This document shows positions 10,994-17,667 of a DNA stretch of 46,206 bases, piece after piece. This stretch comes from an uncultured bacterium (GTDB lineage: Bacteria > JAAXHH01). The stretch lies in the NCBI GenBank assembly GCA_913051705.1, contig CAJXCW010000007.1, forward strand, positions 1-46,206, given 5' to 3'. The first letter of the stretch is position 1. Each line of letters opens with the position of its first letter. Below the pieces are notes generated by a model, which saw only the letters and a program-made list of their open reading frames with translations, searched no databases and was not told the origin of the DNA. A program made the translations under genes and the position numbers.

Positions 10994-11107
10994 ACGATCC
11001 GGATGATCGTCTCGATACAGAATACAGGGTTCACGATACAAGATAAAAAGTAGCAGGCAGGGCGTATCGACTTGTATTCCATGTCCCTTTTTTTTGCATC
11101 TACTCTT

Positions 11108-12814
11108 ATGCTTACGAATCTTATAGTACAGAATTATGCCCTACTCGACGAGGTCAATATCGAGTTTTCATCAGGGCTCAATATACTGACCGGCGAAACC
11201 GGTTCCGGTAAATCGATCTTAATAGGGGCTCTGGGGTTGATTCTCGGTAGTCGGGCAACGAAGGACGCTATCCGGTCCGGTATGGATTCGGCCACAGTTG
11301 AAGGGCTTTTTGAATGGAAATCGGATGAGCCCATGATTCCACTACCGGAAGATTTAGATATTGAAATTGAAGACCGAACCTTGATCATTCGACGTGATGT
11401 GACTCGGGATGGTAGAAGTCGCTGTACAGTCAATGGGCATCCGGTTACCGTGACCGTTTTAAAACGTCTGGGGGAGTTCCTGGTTGATCTACATGGCCAG
11501 CATGATCACCAGTCTTTGCTGGATCAGCGTACACACATTAACTTTCTGGACGGTTTCGGTGATATCAAACGGCTGAAAGAACAGGTCGCTCATGCCTTTC
11601 GTCATTTTTCCGGAGCGGCACGGGCTCTAAAACAACTTGATGAGGAAAATCTGGCTACCCGGGAACGTCGTGAGCTGTATCAGTTTCAGTTAGAAGAATT
11701 GGAGAAGGCGGATGTCTATCCTGGTGAGGAGGACGAGCTGGAGCAGGAACTCGCGGTTCTGGAACATGCCGAACAATTGATTCAGGTAGCTTCCACCGCT
11801 TATGAAGCGTTGTCGCAACGGGAAGATGCGGTCATTGATCAGCTTATTCAGATTATTCGTTCACTGGAGGATATCGAACGGATTGACGTTTCTTTGAGTG
11901 AACCGGTTTCCAATGCCCGGTCGGCACGCTACTATCTGGATGATGTCGTCGTTTTTCTACAACAGTATCGAGATAGAATAGAATTCGACCCGGTTCGTCT
12001 GGACGAAGTGCAGGAACGGCTTGAACAGTTAAAAATGCTCAAAAGAAAATATGGCGGCACCCTCAAAGAGGTGTGCGTCTATCGGGATCGTATGGCCGAT
12101 GAGATTAATCGACTGGAGACAGCCGACGAACACCGGGCCGAACTGGAAGAGGCCCTGGAACAGGCTCGAAAAAATCTCACGGCGAAAGCGGAAAAACTAT
12201 CGACGGCTCGAAAAAAAACCGCATCCAGGATGGAAACACGAGTGGTAAAGGAACTGACTGAACTGGGCATGAAGAAAACTCTTTTTCAGGTACATATCGG
12301 ATGGCACGAGGTTGCAGATGGCCCTATCGTTATCGAGGGAAAATCATATCAGGCAGATGCTTCTGGTATGGACCATGTAGAATTCTTGATTTCACCCAAT
12401 CAGGGGGAGGAGCTCAAGCCGTTGGTCCACATCGCCTCAGGCGGTGAAATATCCCGTGTGATGCTTGCTCTCAAGGTGATTCTGGCTGAATCTGACCAGG
12501 TCCGCACCCTTGTTTTCGATGAAGTAGACCTGGGGATTGGGGGCCGAATTGCCGAATCTATAGGACAAAAACTCAAGCTGCTTTCCCAATCGCATCAGGT
12601 CTTATGTATCACCCATCTACATCAGGTGGCCTGTTGGGGACATACCCATTTCACGGTTCATAAAGAGTCATCCCGAGGGCGGACGGTCACTCAGATCAAC
12701 CATCTCGACCAAGATGGCCGGGTGCAGGAAATTGCCCGTATGCTTGCCGGAGAGACGGTTGATGATATGGCTGTGACCCACGCCCGGGAAATATTACGTC
12801 GCACCCTGGTGTAA
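11108..12814 (+). CDS. recN: DNA repair protein RecN
   Basis: SMC-like ATPase acting in double-strand break repair. From the ATG at 11108 it has 568 residues, the family length. Order: N-terminal nucleotide-binding lobe with Walker A GETGSGKS (about 29-36), a RecN-typical VDLHGQHDHQSLL near 133, a long coiled coil (about 155-400), then the C-terminal lobe with the ABC signature ASGGEISRVMLAL, Walker B TLVFDEVDLGIGG, and the ITHLHQVA switch. The frame is also open from a TTG at 11072 and an ATG at 11081; I chose 11108 because relatives begin MLxxLxIxNxAL. No good ribosome-binding site stands before it, so the start is less certain than the product. Confidence 0.95.
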   Translation: MLTNLIVQNYALLDEVNIEFSSGLNILTGETGSGKSILIGALGLILGSRATKDAIRSGMDSATVEGLFEWKSDEPMIPLPEDLDIEIEDRTLIIRRDVTRDGRSRCTVNGHPVTVTVLKRLGEFLVDLHGQHDHQSLLDQRTHINFLDGFGDIKRLKEQVAHAFRHFSGAARALKQLDEENLATRERRELYQFQLEELEKADVYPGEEDELEQELAVLEHAEQLIQVASTAYEALSQREDAVIDQLIQIIRSLEDIERIDVSLSEPVSNARSARYYLDDVVVFLQQYRDRIEFDPVRLDEVQERLEQLKMLKRKYGGTLKEVCVYRDRMADEINRLETADEHRAELEEALEQARKNLTAKAEKLSTARKKTASRMETRVVKELTELGMKKTLFQVHIGWHEVADGPIVIEGKSYQADASGMDHVEFLISPNQGEELKPLVHIASGGEISRVMLALKVILAESDQVRTLVFDEVDLGIGGRIAESIGQKLKLLSQSHQVLCITHLHQVACWGHTHFTVHKESSRGRTVTQINHLDQDGRVQEIARMLAGETVDDMAVTHAREILRRTLV

Positions 12815-12896
12815 AAATGGTGTTGTGTCGTTCTGGGCGTCGTCGCGTGCCGTGTAGCGACCAAAAAAGGCAGGACTTATTTCCATAGAGGTTTTA

Positions 12897-13547
12897 ATGC
12901 CAACTTTCGATACGGCCACCGGACATCGAAAAACAGCAGACGTATTCTGGACGCCGCCTAATCTGGTATCTATAGCGCGTATTCTTCCTATTCCTTTGAT
13001 CTACTGGAGTTTTAAACACGCCTTTGATTATCTGACGCTGGCGTTGCTCGGCGGTGCTTTTTTAACCGATGCGATCGACGGTTATCTTGCCCGGCGTTTT
13101 CGATGGGAAAGCCGGTGGGGACTGATCCTTGACCCTCTGGCCGACAAGGTATTGATAGGCTGTCTGGCCATTTTCCTGGTTATTTTTCGAGATTTTCCTG
13201 TATGGATGGCTTCACTGATTATTTTTCGAGATATTGCTATTGTCGTTGTGGGTATCTATTTATATTTTAAACCATACCACATTGTTGTGCCTTCGAATGT
13301 AACGGGTAAAGTGACCACTTTGGTGACCTCTTGTATGTTACTCCTTTACACGTTGGATTTTCAACCTTATGGTCAATGGTGTTTATGGGCGGCGTTGTTA
13401 TGCATTATCGGATCTGGCATTCATTATACCTGGGGATTTCTTCGATTGCTTGAACGTCCCTCGGTCCCATCGTCCGGATCACCATTGAAGCCTTCAAGTA
13501 TCTCAAAAATGAATGCCTATCAGCGTAGTCGTGGTACGGGTATATGA
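12897..13547 (+). CDS. pgsA: CDP-alcohol phosphatidyltransferase (PgsA-like)
   Basis: Inner-membrane phospholipid synthase of 216 residues. The complete CDP-alcohol phosphotransferase signature D-G-x2-A-R-x8-G-x3-D-x3-D is visible as DGYLARRF...GLILDPLADK at about residues 63-85, and four or so hydrophobic helices follow. It opens with TPPNLVSIARI, typical of phosphatidylglycerophosphate synthase, which joins CDP-diacylglycerol to glycerol 3-phosphate. Substrate assignment to PgsA rather than a related enzyme is inference from length and opening motif. AGAGG lies five bases before the ATG. Its stop overlaps the start of the next gene. Confidence 0.85.
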   Translation: MPTFDTATGHRKTADVFWTPPNLVSIARILPIPLIYWSFKHAFDYLTLALLGGAFLTDAIDGYLARRFRWESRWGLILDPLADKVLIGCLAIFLVIFRDFPVWMASLIIFRDIAIVVVGIYLYFKPYHIVVPSNVTGKVTTLVTSCMLLLYTLDFQPYGQWCLWAALLCIIGSGIHYTWGFLRLLERPSVPSSGSPLKPSSISKMNAYQRSRGTGI

Positions 13548-14488
13548 AGCGAGGCTCATCAAGATGGACGGCTGTTGGTTGGCATCATTTATATTTGGAG
13601 ATACCTGAAGATTGGGGTATCGGCGCAGTTAGCGGAGATGCATCGACCGGATATCTTCGACTTGATGATGCGGAAATGCCGCGTATCGAGTTGCGATGGG
13701 AGCCCGCACGTGGACAGGAACCGATTGATAAAGTAGTAGAAAGATATCTGAAGAACCTGACGAAGAAAGGACGAAAAAAAGCGCCGCCGATCAAAGTTCG
13801 GCGGGATCTAAACCTCATCAAAGATAAACGTCTCCTGGAAAATCGAGCGGTAGAAGGGTTTCATTGGCGGATAGATGGTGATGAACCCATTCAGGCTTAC
13901 GGGATTCTCTGGCGCTGTGAAGTCTGTTCCCGCATCGTTTTTTTGCAAATTCTTGGTCGGGCCGGTGAGTCTACAATGACGTTGGCAACCAGGATTTTGA
14001 ATACGCTCCAGGATCACCCCGTGGGGGATACGGTTGTCTGGGCTATGTATGGAATGAAGTTCGAGATACCCGTCACATGCGCCCTCAAAAGTCATTCATT
14101 CTTAACCGGTCAGATTAAGCTGAACTTCACGGACAAATCGTCGGAGATAGAGCTGGAACGGCTAAGCCTGGCTGAGATGCATCTGAAAGGTCGGTCTTTT
14201 GAGGAGTGGTTTCAGGATACCTATGGTCACGAAATTGAAACCCTGGACCCTCTTTCTGAAGAACGCCTGCGTCATCCAGGGGTTCAGGCATCTGGAACAA
14301 CCGTTGATCCTGAAACCGTTCATAAAAGGCTGGCCTGGCTGCCATGGCGCAGACCACGCAGACGACCTTTCGATAGTTGCAGTTGGCACTGCACAGATGG
14401 AAACAAACTGTTTACGCTTCGTCGTATGGGCGAGGGCGCTCAGCCTGAGGTGTTACTGGATATCGCGCAATCAGTCGTGTGTCATTGA
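13544..14488 (+). CDS. Uncharacterised two-repeat protein with Cys pairs
   Basis: A 314-residue protein I do not recognise. It appears to consist of two related halves. Each begins with a strand-rich stretch after an 'EIP' motif (YLEIPEDW near residue 17; FEIPVTC near 173), and each has a cysteine pair before a hydrophobic strand (WRCEVCSRIVFLQI near 123; SCSWHC..NKLFTL near 277). The pairs could bind metal or form disulfides. No signal peptide or membrane segment is seen, so it is probably cytosolic. It overlaps the phosphatidyltransferase stop by four bases and is followed by a PqqD-like protein, a small FtsX-type permease and its ATPase, all on one strand, so a shared job in a transport or peptide-handling system is likely but undefined. 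Confidence 0.8.
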   Translation: MKRGSSRWTAVGWHHLYLEIPEDWGIGAVSGDASTGYLRLDDAEMPRIELRWEPARGQEPIDKVVERYLKNLTKKGRKKAPPIKVRRDLNLIKDKRLLENRAVEGFHWRIDGDEPIQAYGILWRCEVCSRIVFLQILGRAGESTMTLATRILNTLQDHPVGDTVVWAMYGMKFEIPVTCALKSHSFLTGQIKLNFTDKSSEIELERLSLAEMHLKGRSFEEWFQDTYGHEIETLDPLSEERLRHPGVQASGTTVDPETVHKRLAWLPWRRPRRRPFDSCSWHCTDGNKLFTLRRMGEGAQPEVLLDIAQSVVCH

Positions 14489-14493
14489 AGCAA

Positions 14494-14580
14494 ATGAGCA
14501 AAGGGATGGTCCCCGCCGGACTGCATCAGTTGCTTTACGATGAGCAAATCAGCGTACGAGTCTATTTGCTTACCTGCTAA
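14494..14580 (+). CDS. Possible 28-residue small ORF
   Basis: An ATG at 14494, with GAAG five bases upstream, opens a 28-codon frame ending in TAA at 14578-14580. The peptide starts MSKGMVPAGL, is neutral to slightly basic and ends in YLLTC. It fills the gap between the Cys-pair protein and the PqqD-like gene. PqqD-like domains bind leader peptides of modified peptides, so a precursor is conceivable, but a frame this short arises easily by chance and the composition is not typical of a known precursor family. Confidence 0.2.
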   Translation: MSKGMVPAGLHQLLYDEQISVRVYLLTC

Positions 14581-14599
14581 TGATAAAGGTGTTCTATCC

Positions 14600-15001
14600 A
14601 TGGCGTTCTTCCGTAAGAAATCACCATCGTTGCCGCGTAGAGAGTTATTACGATCCAAACCGATACGTAATAGCCGGTTAAAATGGGAAGAGAATACGGA
14701 CGGCGAAGTGGTGCTGGCCATCCCGCGTCGCAGGACCTGGTGGCTTAATCTCGTGTCCAGAGTATTTTATGTCCCATCAAAACGGACCGTGGTACTGGAC
14801 GAGATCGGTTCATGGCTATGGTCGCTGTGTGATGGTCAGAATACGGTGGATCATGTCATTACCACCGTTCGAGAACGATATAAATTGGAACGCAAGGAGG
14901 CGGAAGTGTCGACGTTGACCTATCTTAAACAACTGATGGAAAAAGGGCTGATTGGCCTGGCTGTGTCGCACGTAATAAAAAATAAGGAGAAGCGTATATG
15001 A
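14600..15001 (+). CDS. PqqD-like domain protein
   Basis: A 133-residue cytosolic protein whose residues about 45-120 match the PqqD fold: VFYVPSKRTVVLDEIGSWLWSLCDG, then TVDHVITTVRERY and a helical LTYLKQLMEKGLIGL, the usual beta-strand plus winged-helix pattern. PqqD proteins and related RiPP recognition elements bind peptide substrates; many stand-alone members are of unknown role. A basic N-terminus (FFRKK, RRELLRSK) precedes it. I start at the ATG at 14600, preceded by AAAGGTG; an in-frame ATG at 14540 lacks a ribosome-binding site. The stop overlaps the permease start (ATGA), so the two are probably co-translated. Confidence 0.75.
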   Translation: MAFFRKKSPSLPRRELLRSKPIRNSRLKWEENTDGEVVLAIPRRRTWWLNLVSRVFYVPSKRTVVLDEIGSWLWSLCDGQNTVDHVITTVRERYKLERKEAEVSTLTYLKQLMEKGLIGLAVSHVIKNKEKRI

Positions 15002-15657
15002 CCACCCATTCGGCAACAGCCGAACCGAGCCAAAGGCAAATTTCTCTGCCGTTATCGAAAGCCATTGAAATTGCTTTTCGCAGCTTGAAAATCAGATTCT
15101 GGCGATCGTTGATTACCATTGGCGGAATCTTTTTCGGCATTGCTTTTTTGATGTCTATTTTGACATCTTCAGCCCTTAATAAAGCGCTGCTGGAAGGCGG
15201 TAGTTCGCAGGTCAGGGCATTGCTGGAGCAAAAAGGGACGGACGCAGAGGCCGAAACACAACAGATATGGCTGGTGACGTTGTCTTTGCTTGTTTGTGTG
15301 GTAGGAATTACCAATGCCATGCTGATGTCGGTTACCGAGAGGTATCGGGAGATCGGTACGATGAAATGTCTGGGGGCGTTGGATATATTTATTATCGAGT
15401 TGTTTCTACTGGAGTCCGCATTCCAGGGGTTGGTCGGTTCACTGGGCGGTGTCATTTTAGGATGCCTCTTTATGACCGTATCTATGATGTCGTCGTATGG
15501 GATGGAGCCGCTTTCCGTATTTCCGGTAATGAGCGTTTTGAAGTTTGGTTTATACTCGTTGGGTGCTGGGCTTTTCCTTTCTATTGTCGGTGCGCTTTAT
15601 CCTGCACAGCAGGCAGCAAAAATGTTGCCTGCCGATGCCATGCGAACAGAAGTATAA
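14998..15657 (+). CDS. Minimal FtsX/MacB-type ABC permease
   Basis: Inner-membrane permease of 219 residues. One membrane helix lies near residues 38-60 (LITIGGIFFGIAFLMSI), followed by only about 35 hydrophilic residues. A C-terminal FtsX domain with three helices comes next, carrying the characteristic ERYREIGTMKCLGA segment (about 112-125) and ending LYPAQQAAKMLPADAMR. MacB, LolC/E and FtsX-like permeases normally have a periplasmic domain of about 200 residues between helices 1 and 2; it is absent here, so this is a pared-down type VII ABC permease. AAGGAG stands eight bases before the ATG. It overlaps the PqqD-like gene and is followed 76 bases later by its ATPase. Confidence 0.85.
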   Translation: MTTHSATAEPSQRQISLPLSKAIEIAFRSLKIRFWRSLITIGGIFFGIAFLMSILTSSALNKALLEGGSSQVRALLEQKGTDAEAETQQIWLVTLSLLVCVVGITNAMLMSVTERYREIGTMKCLGALDIFIIELFLLESAFQGLVGSLGGVILGCLFMTVSMMSSYGMEPLSVFPVMSVLKFGLYSLGAGLFLSIVGALYPAQQAAKMLPADAMRTEV

Positions 15658-15733
15658 TGATCAGTCTCAAGTTCCATATTCTGGAAAATAACATGTGCAA
15701 ATTGCGCATACCTATATGAGAAGGGGGTTGTGC

Positions 15734-16504
15734 ATGTCGGAAGAACAAGCCGTTACCACAGAGCCGCAGGATATAGATGTTCAAAATATCGTCCGTACCC
15801 GCGGTGTGAGACGGGTGTATAAAATGGGTAAACTGGAGTTGGAAGCGCTCAAGGGGATTGATCTCGAAATTAAACGGGGCGAATACATATCTATTATGGG
15901 CCCATCTGGTTCAGGGAAATCAACCTTATTCAATATGATCGGTGCTCTGGATAAACCGACGTCAGGCAAAGTATATATCGATGAGGTGGATGTTGCTCAA
16001 CTGGACGCGTACGAGTTGGCCTGGCTGCGTTGTAGAAAAATTGGGTATATCTTCCAGACGTTTAATCTGATCCCGGTGATGACGGCACTGGAAAACGTAA
16101 CCCTGCCAATGATTTTTGCCGGGTTGTCAACAGACGAATCCATAGATAAAGCCGTTGATCTATTGGAGACGGTAGGCCTGGGGGACCGGGTTCAGCACAG
16201 GCCGTTGGAACTGTCCGGTGGGCAGCAGCAACGCGTGGCCGTCGCTCGTGCGCTGGCCAATGATCCAGCCATTGTCCTGGCGGATGAACCGACAGGAAAC
16301 CTGGACCGCCAGACCGGCCGTGAAATTATTGAGCTGTTAAGGCGACTGAATACGGAAAAAGAGGTGACGATCATTTCCGCTACGCATGATTTGAAAATGC
16401 TGGATGTCTCGGATCGTATTGTTTGGGTCGAGGACGGTAAGATTGCCAAGATTCAGCGCAGAGAAGACCTTGATCTTGATGTTGGTCAAATCGGTGAGGA
16501 TTAG
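15734..16504 (+). CDS. ABC transporter ATP-binding protein (LolD/MacB type)
   Basis: ATPase of 256 residues for the adjacent FtsX-type permease. Walker A GPSGSGKST (about 53-61), Q-loop in FQTFNLIPVMTALENV, signature LSGGQQQRVAVARAL, Walker B IVLADEPTGNLD and the switch histidine SATHD are all intact, in the arrangement of LolD/MacB/FtsE. I use the ATG at 15734 because AAGGGGG lies eight bases upstream; the frame is open further back. About 20 extra residues precede the first strand. The pair probably drives a mechanical task in the envelope, such as lipoprotein or peptide extrusion, rather than solute import. Confidence 0.9.
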   Translation: MSEEQAVTTEPQDIDVQNIVRTRGVRRVYKMGKLELEALKGIDLEIKRGEYISIMGPSGSGKSTLFNMIGALDKPTSGKVYIDEVDVAQLDAYELAWLRCRKIGYIFQTFNLIPVMTALENVTLPMIFAGLSTDESIDKAVDLLETVGLGDRVQHRPLELSGGQQQRVAVARALANDPAIVLADEPTGNLDRQTGREIIELLRRLNTEKEVTIISATHDLKMLDVSDRIVWVEDGKIAKIQRREDLDLDVGQIGED

Positions 16505-16515
16505 GAGGGCGTCGT

Positions 16516-17667
16516 ATGCCTACCCTGCGGCTTCTGGTAACCGCCGGTCCACATGTCAGACATGCCTGCCCCGTCAGTGTACCTGTAGATCTACCGGCAG
16601 GTACGAACGTCGGGATTACTGATATTATTTCCGGTCGCACCATGCCCGGACAGTGTGTCTCTGAGAACGGAACGACCTGCCTTCATTGGGTCATCGAATA
16701 TCTGGCGCAAAATGAAATACGGGAATATGTAGTTAATCCCAAGGTGACCTGGGATAATACCTTGCAGGGGGTAACGGTCAAAGACACACCGGATAATCGG
16801 GTCGATATTGCTATCGTAAACCGGTTGTTTACGGCCTATCATTATAGTTCGGAACTCGCTCGTCCTTACTGTTATCCGGTGAATGATCCGTACCGTTCTT
16901 GCGTAACACGCGCCAATGTGGGAGAAAAGCCCGGTGAGACTACAGATCACGAACATCACAGGTCGCTGTGGACTTCATATGGCGAGGTAAACGGTACGAA
17001 CAACTGGGATGAGTTGGAAGGTCACGGTCGTACTGTGCATCGATCTTTTGACCTGCTGGAAAGCGGTTCGGTGCTCGGACGTTTACGAGCCCATAGCGAT
17101 TGGGAGACGGCAGAAGGCGAGGTCCTTCTCCACGAGACACGCGAGTTTCGGGTATATGATAATCGAGATGATCTGGCTCAAATTTTCGATGTGATCTTAG
17201 AGCTGGAGGCGGCCAACGGAGATGTTCATTTTGGTGATACCAAGGAAGGCGGTTTCCTCTCAGTACGGGTCGCTTCCACGATGGACGCATCCGGCGACGG
17301 CCAGATTGAAAATGGATACGGTGGTATCGGGGAATTCGAATGCTGGGGCAAACGATCGTGCTGGTGTGACTATTCCGGTCCGGTCGACGGCCGTTGTTCC
17401 GGTATTGCCGTCATGGAGCATCCAGATTCATTCCGTAGCCCGACCTACTGGCACGTAAGGGATTATGGGCTGATGAGCACCAACCCCTTTGGCGCAGGTA
17501 CTTTTCAAAATGATCCCAATATATCCGGTGCTTATACCCTGCCTCAGGGTGAGCGGCTCCATTTCGCCTACCGCATTATGGCCCATCTGGGCGATGCCTG
17601 GGATGCCAATGTCGCCAAGGCCTATCACGGGTATATTAACCCCCCGAAAGCAGAAGTAATAGATTGA
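16516..17667 (+). CDS. DUF6807 (PmoA-like) family protein
   Basis: A 383-residue protein matching the DUF6807 family, often labelled 'PmoA' although unrelated to the membrane methane monooxygenase subunit. The hallmark region is present near residues 110-160: FTAYHY, ARPYCYPV, then TTDHEHHRSLW and YGEVNGTNNWDE (relatives read DHxHHRxLWxxHGxVNG). The conserved histidines suggest metal or substrate binding. Members are common beside Gfo/Idh/MocA and sugar genes in environmental bacteria, and no reaction is firmly known. GGAGGG lies six bases before the ATG. It is the last gene of the plus-strand run and faces secA across a terminator-like repeat. Confidence 0.8.
   Translation: MPTLRLLVTAGPHVRHACPVSVPVDLPAGTNVGITDIISGRTMPGQCVSENGTTCLHWVIEYLAQNEIREYVVNPKVTWDNTLQGVTVKDTPDNRVDIAIVNRLFTAYHYSSELARPYCYPVNDPYRSCVTRANVGEKPGETTDHEHHRSLWTSYGEVNGTNNWDELEGHGRTVHRSFDLLESGSVLGRLRAHSDWETAEGEVLLHETREFRVYDNRDDLAQIFDVILELEAANGDVHFGDTKEGGFLSVRVASTMDASGDGQIENGYGGIGEFECWGKRSCWCDYSGPVDGRCSGIAVMEHPDSFRSPTYWHVRDYGLMSTNPFGAGTFQNDPNISGAYTLPQGERLHFAYRIMAHLGDAWDANVAKAYHGYINPPKAEVID

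Follow-up and report, generated by a model that had tools for sequence, protein, structure and literature searches.

The question raised by this locus is what kind of machine its genes build, and whether they build it alone. The window, a 46,206-nucleotide stretch of DNA from an uncultured bacterium (assembly GCA_913051705.1, contig CAJXCW010000007.1, positions 1 to 46,206), carries four consecutive genes for a 314-residue protein (ORF314), a PqqD-domain protein, a short FtsX permease (FtsX220) and an ATPase. An earlier note on this DNA proposed that they form an uncharacterised system for handling or exporting a peptide, lipid or protein, controlled by the PqqD-like protein. We found that the set is conserved and is co-inherited with two further genes, one encoding a giant protein with M28-like, MacB-periplasmic and FtsX domains (GIANT) and the other a membrane partner with multiple transmembrane (TM) segments (OPT-like). 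Very probably the four genes form one system together with GIANT and the OPT-like protein. That, with these two partners, they build an undescribed ATP-binding cassette (ABC) system of Type VII (mechanotransmission), of which they are the cytoplasmic and energy-supplying half, is a reading to which we give about even credence.

The genes proved to be as tightly packed as had been described, all on the + strand. ORF314 occupies 13544..14488, the PqqD-domain gene (133 residues) 14600..15001, the FtsX220 gene (219 residues) 14998..15657 and the ATPase gene (256 residues) 15734..16504. The starts of the PqqD gene (14600) and the ATPase gene (15734) are those supported by relatives, and with them 111 bases separate the 314 gene from the PqqD gene and 76 bases separate the FtsX220 gene from the ATPase gene. 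There are two stop/start overlaps, each 4 bases long (ATGA), one between the PqqD and FtsX220 genes (14998-15001) and one between the upstream pgsA gene and ORF314 (13544-13547). FtsX220 matches PF02687 with a score of 61.4 against a cut-off of 25.5 (E 1.1e-16), and alignment together with a TM scan revealed the fold of an FtsX-type permease, with a conserved coupling segment, TERYREIGTMKCLGALD, between TM2 and TM3. The permease does lack its usual periplasmic domain, as the earlier note had it: only about 35 residues stand between TM1 and TM2, where the periplasmic domain of MacB has about 200 (PMC5985334). The extracytoplasmic TM1-TM2 domain that characterizes Type VII systems is absent from FtsX220 and present in GIANT (PF12704). 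The LolD/MacB/YbbA-like ATPase matches ABC_tran (1.8e-34), and its Walker A, Q-loop, LSGGQ signature, Walker B and H-loop motifs are all intact.

The 314 gene was found in 14 of 15 relatives of the same family or order, and the order 314-PqqD-FtsX220-ATPase recurs in all 14, with that of G012 split by a contig end. Identity to the window proteins within this group runs at about 56-62% (314), 66-78% (PqqD), 78-84% (FtsX220) and 84-87% (ATPase). The set appears to be absent from G014, an assembly that is 83% complete and in which the ATPase, FtsX220 and 314 genes are jointly missing. A first contig scan, with a single window protein as the query, gave no matches. Further afield, the 314 family is present in 80 of 84 Poribacteria genomes, in both genomes of the phylum to which G053 belongs, and in G378, G388 and G432. 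Among 81 Poribacteria genomes, 76 carry FtsX220, as a single copy apart from one genome with two matches; of 16 genomes checked, 15 have a single FtsX220, and it adjoins an ATPase of the same family wherever both were located. Since the set is conserved across genera, families and phyla, we conclude that it is not a chance arrangement. It is apparently an undescribed gene set shared by several uncultured bacterial phyla, and because it is near-universal in Poribacteria and otherwise confined, in the sample searched, to a small number of uncultured lineages, the system is probably important to their cell envelope.

The link with GIANT and the OPT-like protein comes from gene order and co-occurrence. 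A named genome collection yielded 67 loci with a 314 gene, from Poribacteria and one contig labelled Planctomycetota. The one-strand order GIANT-OPT(-OPT)-314-PqqD-ATPase was seen in 57 of the 67 loci (Poribacteria), and contig ends cut most of the others. A conserved pairing of the 314 family with PqqD and the permease had been named as the check on the original proposal. The first half of that pairing holds in 61 of the 67 loci, and four of the six loci without PqqD have a contig end within 250 bases; the second half does not extend to Poribacteria in the form expected, where FtsX220 lies at another locus, but an FtsX-domain gene, GIANT, stands two genes upstream. All six genes are contiguous in G053 and G432. 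The order in G142 is 314-PqqD-FtsX220-ATPase-DUF6785-GIANT-OPT; in G314 and G174 it is GIANT-OPT-PqqD-FtsX220-ATPase, without 314, and G442 resembles these two without an adjacent PqqD gene. In a sample of 384 genomes the 314 family occurs in only 23, all of which carry GIANT. Counted by genus, all 12 of the 314-positive genera fall within the 16 GIANT-bearing genera among 322 (hypergeometric test, 8.6e-19, uncorrected for relatedness).

Some loci depart from the common pattern. In one group of Poribacteria (L176, L177, L179-L182) the OPT-like gene is tandemly duplicated, and at two poribacterial loci (L183, L206) the 314 gene stands without its usual neighbours being recognised, truncation not being an obvious cause. 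The order GIANT-OPT-314 also appears on the contig labelled Planctomycetota (L236, isolate CPC9), which may belong to a misassigned bin.

In the window genome (G000) the partners are encoded away from the four genes. Relatives of GIANT lie on contigs C9, C86, C19, C105 and C75, some of them adjoining DUF6785/DUF6784 or OPT-like genes. Contigs C51, C105 and C50 carry OPT-like genes. None of these GIANT and OPT-like genes has an ATPase of this family beside it. The window genome and G002 each hold a single ATPase of the family (E<=1e-70) and a single FtsX220, both within the set, against several copies of GIANT and OPT-like. The four-gene set is therefore not self-sufficient, because its periplasmic parts (GIANT) and its membrane partner (OPT-like) are encoded elsewhere. 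Handling or export of a peptide, lipid or protein is still the best class of function for it, and the original proposal fell short in taking the four genes for the complete system. Genes for DUF6785/DUF6784 membrane proteins adjoin GIANT genes at L141 (4284-6314), L139 (3473-5428), L147 (12606-14600) and L135 (4571-6592). The ends of C75 and C105 (L141 and L140) carry N- and C-terminal parts of GIANT genes that may be a single gene which the assembly has broken.

GIANT proteins have 1,500-2,400 residues, in which Pfam finds M28 peptidase, MacB-like periplasmic (PF12704) and FtsX domains, with LysM in addition in the poribacterial protein. They are laid out as an N-terminal hydrophobic segment, the M28-like domain, three extra TM segments, an FtsX core with a MacB-type periplasmic domain, and a C-terminal domain. 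In the M28-like domain the first His is replaced in 29 of the 30 sequences that cover the site, by Phe or Tyr in nearly all; other residues stand in place of the Glu-Glu pair, usually with a conserved His, and the last His is not constant. The zinc ligands and catalytic glutamate of a working peptidase are thus not in place, while the motif around them is strongly conserved, and because the metal positions have changed within a conserved surrounding the domain probably serves for binding and not for catalysis. The C-terminal domain, of about 160 residues, is strongly conserved (WLAPYDLGVSQ, SWKRLNRRFLNxLRKQFLVWRT; for example L054, 4108-4578); a sequence search gave no solved relative for it, and it showed no similarity to ORF314. 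In Poribacteria the OPT-like protein has multiple TM segments and about 662 residues. Of 13 members, 4 match PF03169 at E<=0.1, the best with 4.9e-6, and a profile comparison with DUF6785 was weak (probability 18%, E 0.0013).

The stand-alone PqqD-like protein was borne out by a PF05402 score of 48.7 bits against a cut-off of 23.4; it carries a conserved N-terminal extension of about 50 residues. ORF314 has no Pfam entry, and no Pfam family matched it at E<=1. The DUF1795/DcrB, PsbP and Mog1 families matched none of 24 ORF314-family members at the same threshold, and a sequence search of solved structures with the 314 family gave no credible match. An AlphaFold2 model (mean predicted local distance difference test, pLDDT, 80.2; predicted template modelling score, pTM, 0.75; low confidence at 248-271) shows two halves of like type, in line with the duplicated-domain protein of the earlier note. 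In structure comparisons of the model, the N half matched PsbP (CyanoP; Z 14.6, root-mean-square deviation (rmsd) 2.8, 141 residues aligned), DcrB (12.4), SciW (11.8), EagT6 (11.2) and also Mog1, and the C half matched Tsi3 (Z 10.4, rmsd 4.1, 114 aligned) and RseB (Z 9.8, rmsd 2.8, 88 aligned). ORF314 is thus predicted to consist of two tandem PsbP/Mog1/DcrB-fold domains (about residues 5-160 and 161-314). Neither a TM segment nor a signal peptide or hydrophobic N-terminus was predicted, so that the protein is expected to be cytoplasmic. Eag proteins, which share the fold, shield the TM helices of effectors in the cytoplasm (PMC7773334), and by similarity of fold an Eag-like chaperone role may be taken as a lead for the function of ORF314. 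The two CxxC-like pairs noticed earlier are present in the window protein (C125-x2-C128 and C279-x3-C283), but they are no signature of the family: among 91 relatives the first pair is kept in 37 and C279 in 8, whereas the single C283 is kept in 85, and a C-terminal Cys-His retains its Cys in 77 and its His in 80. A redox or zinc role of the pairs was therefore rejected as a family trait.

How might these parts work together? In Type VII ABC systems ATP moves periplasmic parts, and the partners define the function (PMC12646458). We propose that FtsX220 pairs with GIANT as LolC does with LolE, the two permease halves sitting on the ATPase dimer, and that in the window lineage a single engine may serve several GIANT partners. 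ATP binding and hydrolysis would move the periplasmic parts of GIANT, whose M28-derived domain may grip a peptide or protein without cutting it; the OPT-like protein would be a membrane path or a partner transporter, and either it or the envelope would receive the held peptide or protein. The PqqD protein could bind a cytoplasmic peptide segment, of the substrate or of GIANT, and ORF314, with its Eag-chaperone fold, could act as a cytoplasmic loading or assembly factor. Three of the parts (PqqD, M28 and, more weakly, OPT-like) are related to peptide-binding or peptide-transport families, and the system probably handles peptides or proteins at the inner membrane. The specific peptide-handling model sketched here stands somewhat below an even chance. 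A bolder idea, which we hold as doubtful, makes the system a new class of machine for translocating peptides or proteins at the inner membrane: one shared engine of ATPase and FtsX220 would drive several interchangeable giant pseudo-peptidase permeases, these being paired with OPT-like or DUF6785 channels and loaded from the cytoplasm by PqqD-like and Eag-like chaperones.

Several observations weigh against the Type VII reading or parts of it. As a rule, substrates are not carried across the membrane by a Type VII system (PMC12646458), and for that reason a transport role for the OPT-like protein is only a guess. Its OPT membership is itself weak (the G053 protein scores 19.7 bits with PF03169, whose cut-off is 25.8), and its AlphaFold2 model, from 22 sequences with about 80% column identity, reached a pLDDT of 39 and was left unused. 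The PsbP-like fold is common to proteins of many functions. The 314 gene is missing from family f88, and G442 has no PqqD gene adjoining the others, yet both keep GIANT, OPT-like, FtsX220 and the ATPase, so that 314 and PqqD look like accessories and not like the core. Nothing supported the idea that the PqqD-like protein controls the system. Poribacteria have two ATPases of the family, the second beside the separate FtsX220 locus, and poribacterial FtsX220 may consequently work apart from GIANT. Finally, the co-occurrence of 314 and GIANT is partly due to the shared ancestry of a few phyla.

These points leave room for other explanations. FtsX220, the ATPase, PqqD and 314 could form a signalling or regulatory unit like FtsEX, with no more than a shared lineage linking them to GIANT and the OPT-like protein. 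An FtsX220 almost devoid of a periplasmic part is what would be expected of a regulator, FtsX220 and the ATPase do not adjoin GIANT in G223, G358, G378 and G388, and genes that are linked in some lineages are split in others. We consider this explanation unlikely in view of the operon-like linkage to GIANT and OPT-like in Poribacteria (ATPase, PqqD and 314), G053, G142, G432 and f88. Just as improbable, in our judgement, is a divergent LolCDE, MacB, FtsEX or YbbAP system that has gained accessory genes and is mechanistically nothing new. The ATPase and permease do fall in those superfamilies, and YbbAP also pairs a Type VII ABC transporter having extra TM segments with a periplasmic hydrolase, a resemblance to GIANT (PMC12646458). 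When scored against NCBIfam equivalog models with curated cut-offs (LolCDE, MacB, FtsEX, YbbAP and PQQ/lasso PqqD), however, the proteins passed none: the ATPase scored 238 against 308 for LolD, 203 against 265 for FtsE and 216 against 336 for YbbA, and the permease 41 against 362 for lolCE and 53 against 966 for MacB. Because all tested models were far below cut-off, we filed the set under none of these systems, although its way of working is probably that of Type VII; no clear Lol or Mac assignment emerged. We know of no described Type VII system with a PqqD protein, a PsbP-like cytosolic protein, an M28-derived domain or an OPT-like partner.

The PqqD protein suggests a third explanation, export of or immunity to a lasso-type or other ribosomally synthesized and post-translationally modified peptide (RiPP), with PqqD presenting the leader peptide to the ABC exporter. 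Lasso and PQQ leader-binding proteins are the closest matches to its PqqD domain, the nearest solved relatives being lasso-peptide PqqD-family chaperones, and the ATPase shows a likeness to several kinds of protein, bacteriocin exporters among them. The PQQ and lasso PqqD equivalog models were nevertheless missed (32.8 against a cut-off of 46, and 31.5 against 80). The flanking genes scanned contained no radical S-adenosylmethionine or other modifying enzyme, as the earlier note had observed, and no precursor gene was recognised. A near-universal single copy across a phylum is also unlike a biosynthetic cluster, and we regard this explanation as very improbable. The Type VII reading with GIANT and OPT-like is the one that we retain.

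The four genes lie in a one-direction array (11072-17667) of recN, pgsA, ORF314, the PqqD-domain gene, the short FtsX permease gene, the ATPase gene and a DUF6807 gene. The pgsA gene (CDP-alcohol phosphatidyltransferase, 12897..13547, + strand) keeps its adjacency only within the same taxonomic order and is a neighbour outside the machine. The DUF6807 gene (16516..17667, + strand) begins 11 bases past the ATPase gene and adjoins the set only in the window genome, G001 and G015, and neither in genus g3 nor in other phyla; it is probably a local neighbour.

In the literature searched, which held few subscription papers, DUF6785 was unmentioned, FtsX was linked neither with an M28 peptidase and a permease nor with Poribacteria and ABC transporters, and the six-part combination was undescribed. 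The system would add a Type VII ABC machine in which a catalytically dead peptidase domain comes together with a shared engine and with a cytoplasmic adaptor that binds peptides, and it would give a first context to DUF6785/DUF6784 and to the unnamed 314-residue family. Its FtsX/ATPase engine is of a known kind; the partners and their arrangement are new. With YbbAP-TesA of E. coli (PMC12646458) it has in common a LolD/YbbA-like ATPase, an FtsX-type permease, extra TM segments and a hydrolase-related periplasmic part, but its own hydrolase-like domain forms one polypeptide with the permease and no longer has the metal ligands, the YbbA cut-off is not reached, and a short FtsX, OPT-like, PqqD and PsbP-like proteins are added. 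Two non-identical FtsX permeases on one type of ATPase would resemble LolC, LolE and LolD, except that one partner has 1,500-2,400 residues, the other is without a periplasmic domain and the scores are far below the Lol cut-offs. Like the lasso PqqD-family chaperones among RiPP recognition elements, the system has a stand-alone PqqD-fold protein, here with a conserved N-terminal extension, an ABC transporter as partner and neither modifying enzyme nor precursor seen. Each half of ORF314 is predicted to share its fold with the Eag (DUF1795) proteins EagT6 and SciW, DcrB, PsbP and Mog1, from which it differs in its tandem duplication and its own conserved residues, no type VI secretion context being seen. 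Degenerate M28 proteins such as nicalin also have an M28-like domain without metal ligands (a weak match, E 0.0036), whereas in GIANT this domain is fused to a bacterial FtsX permease.

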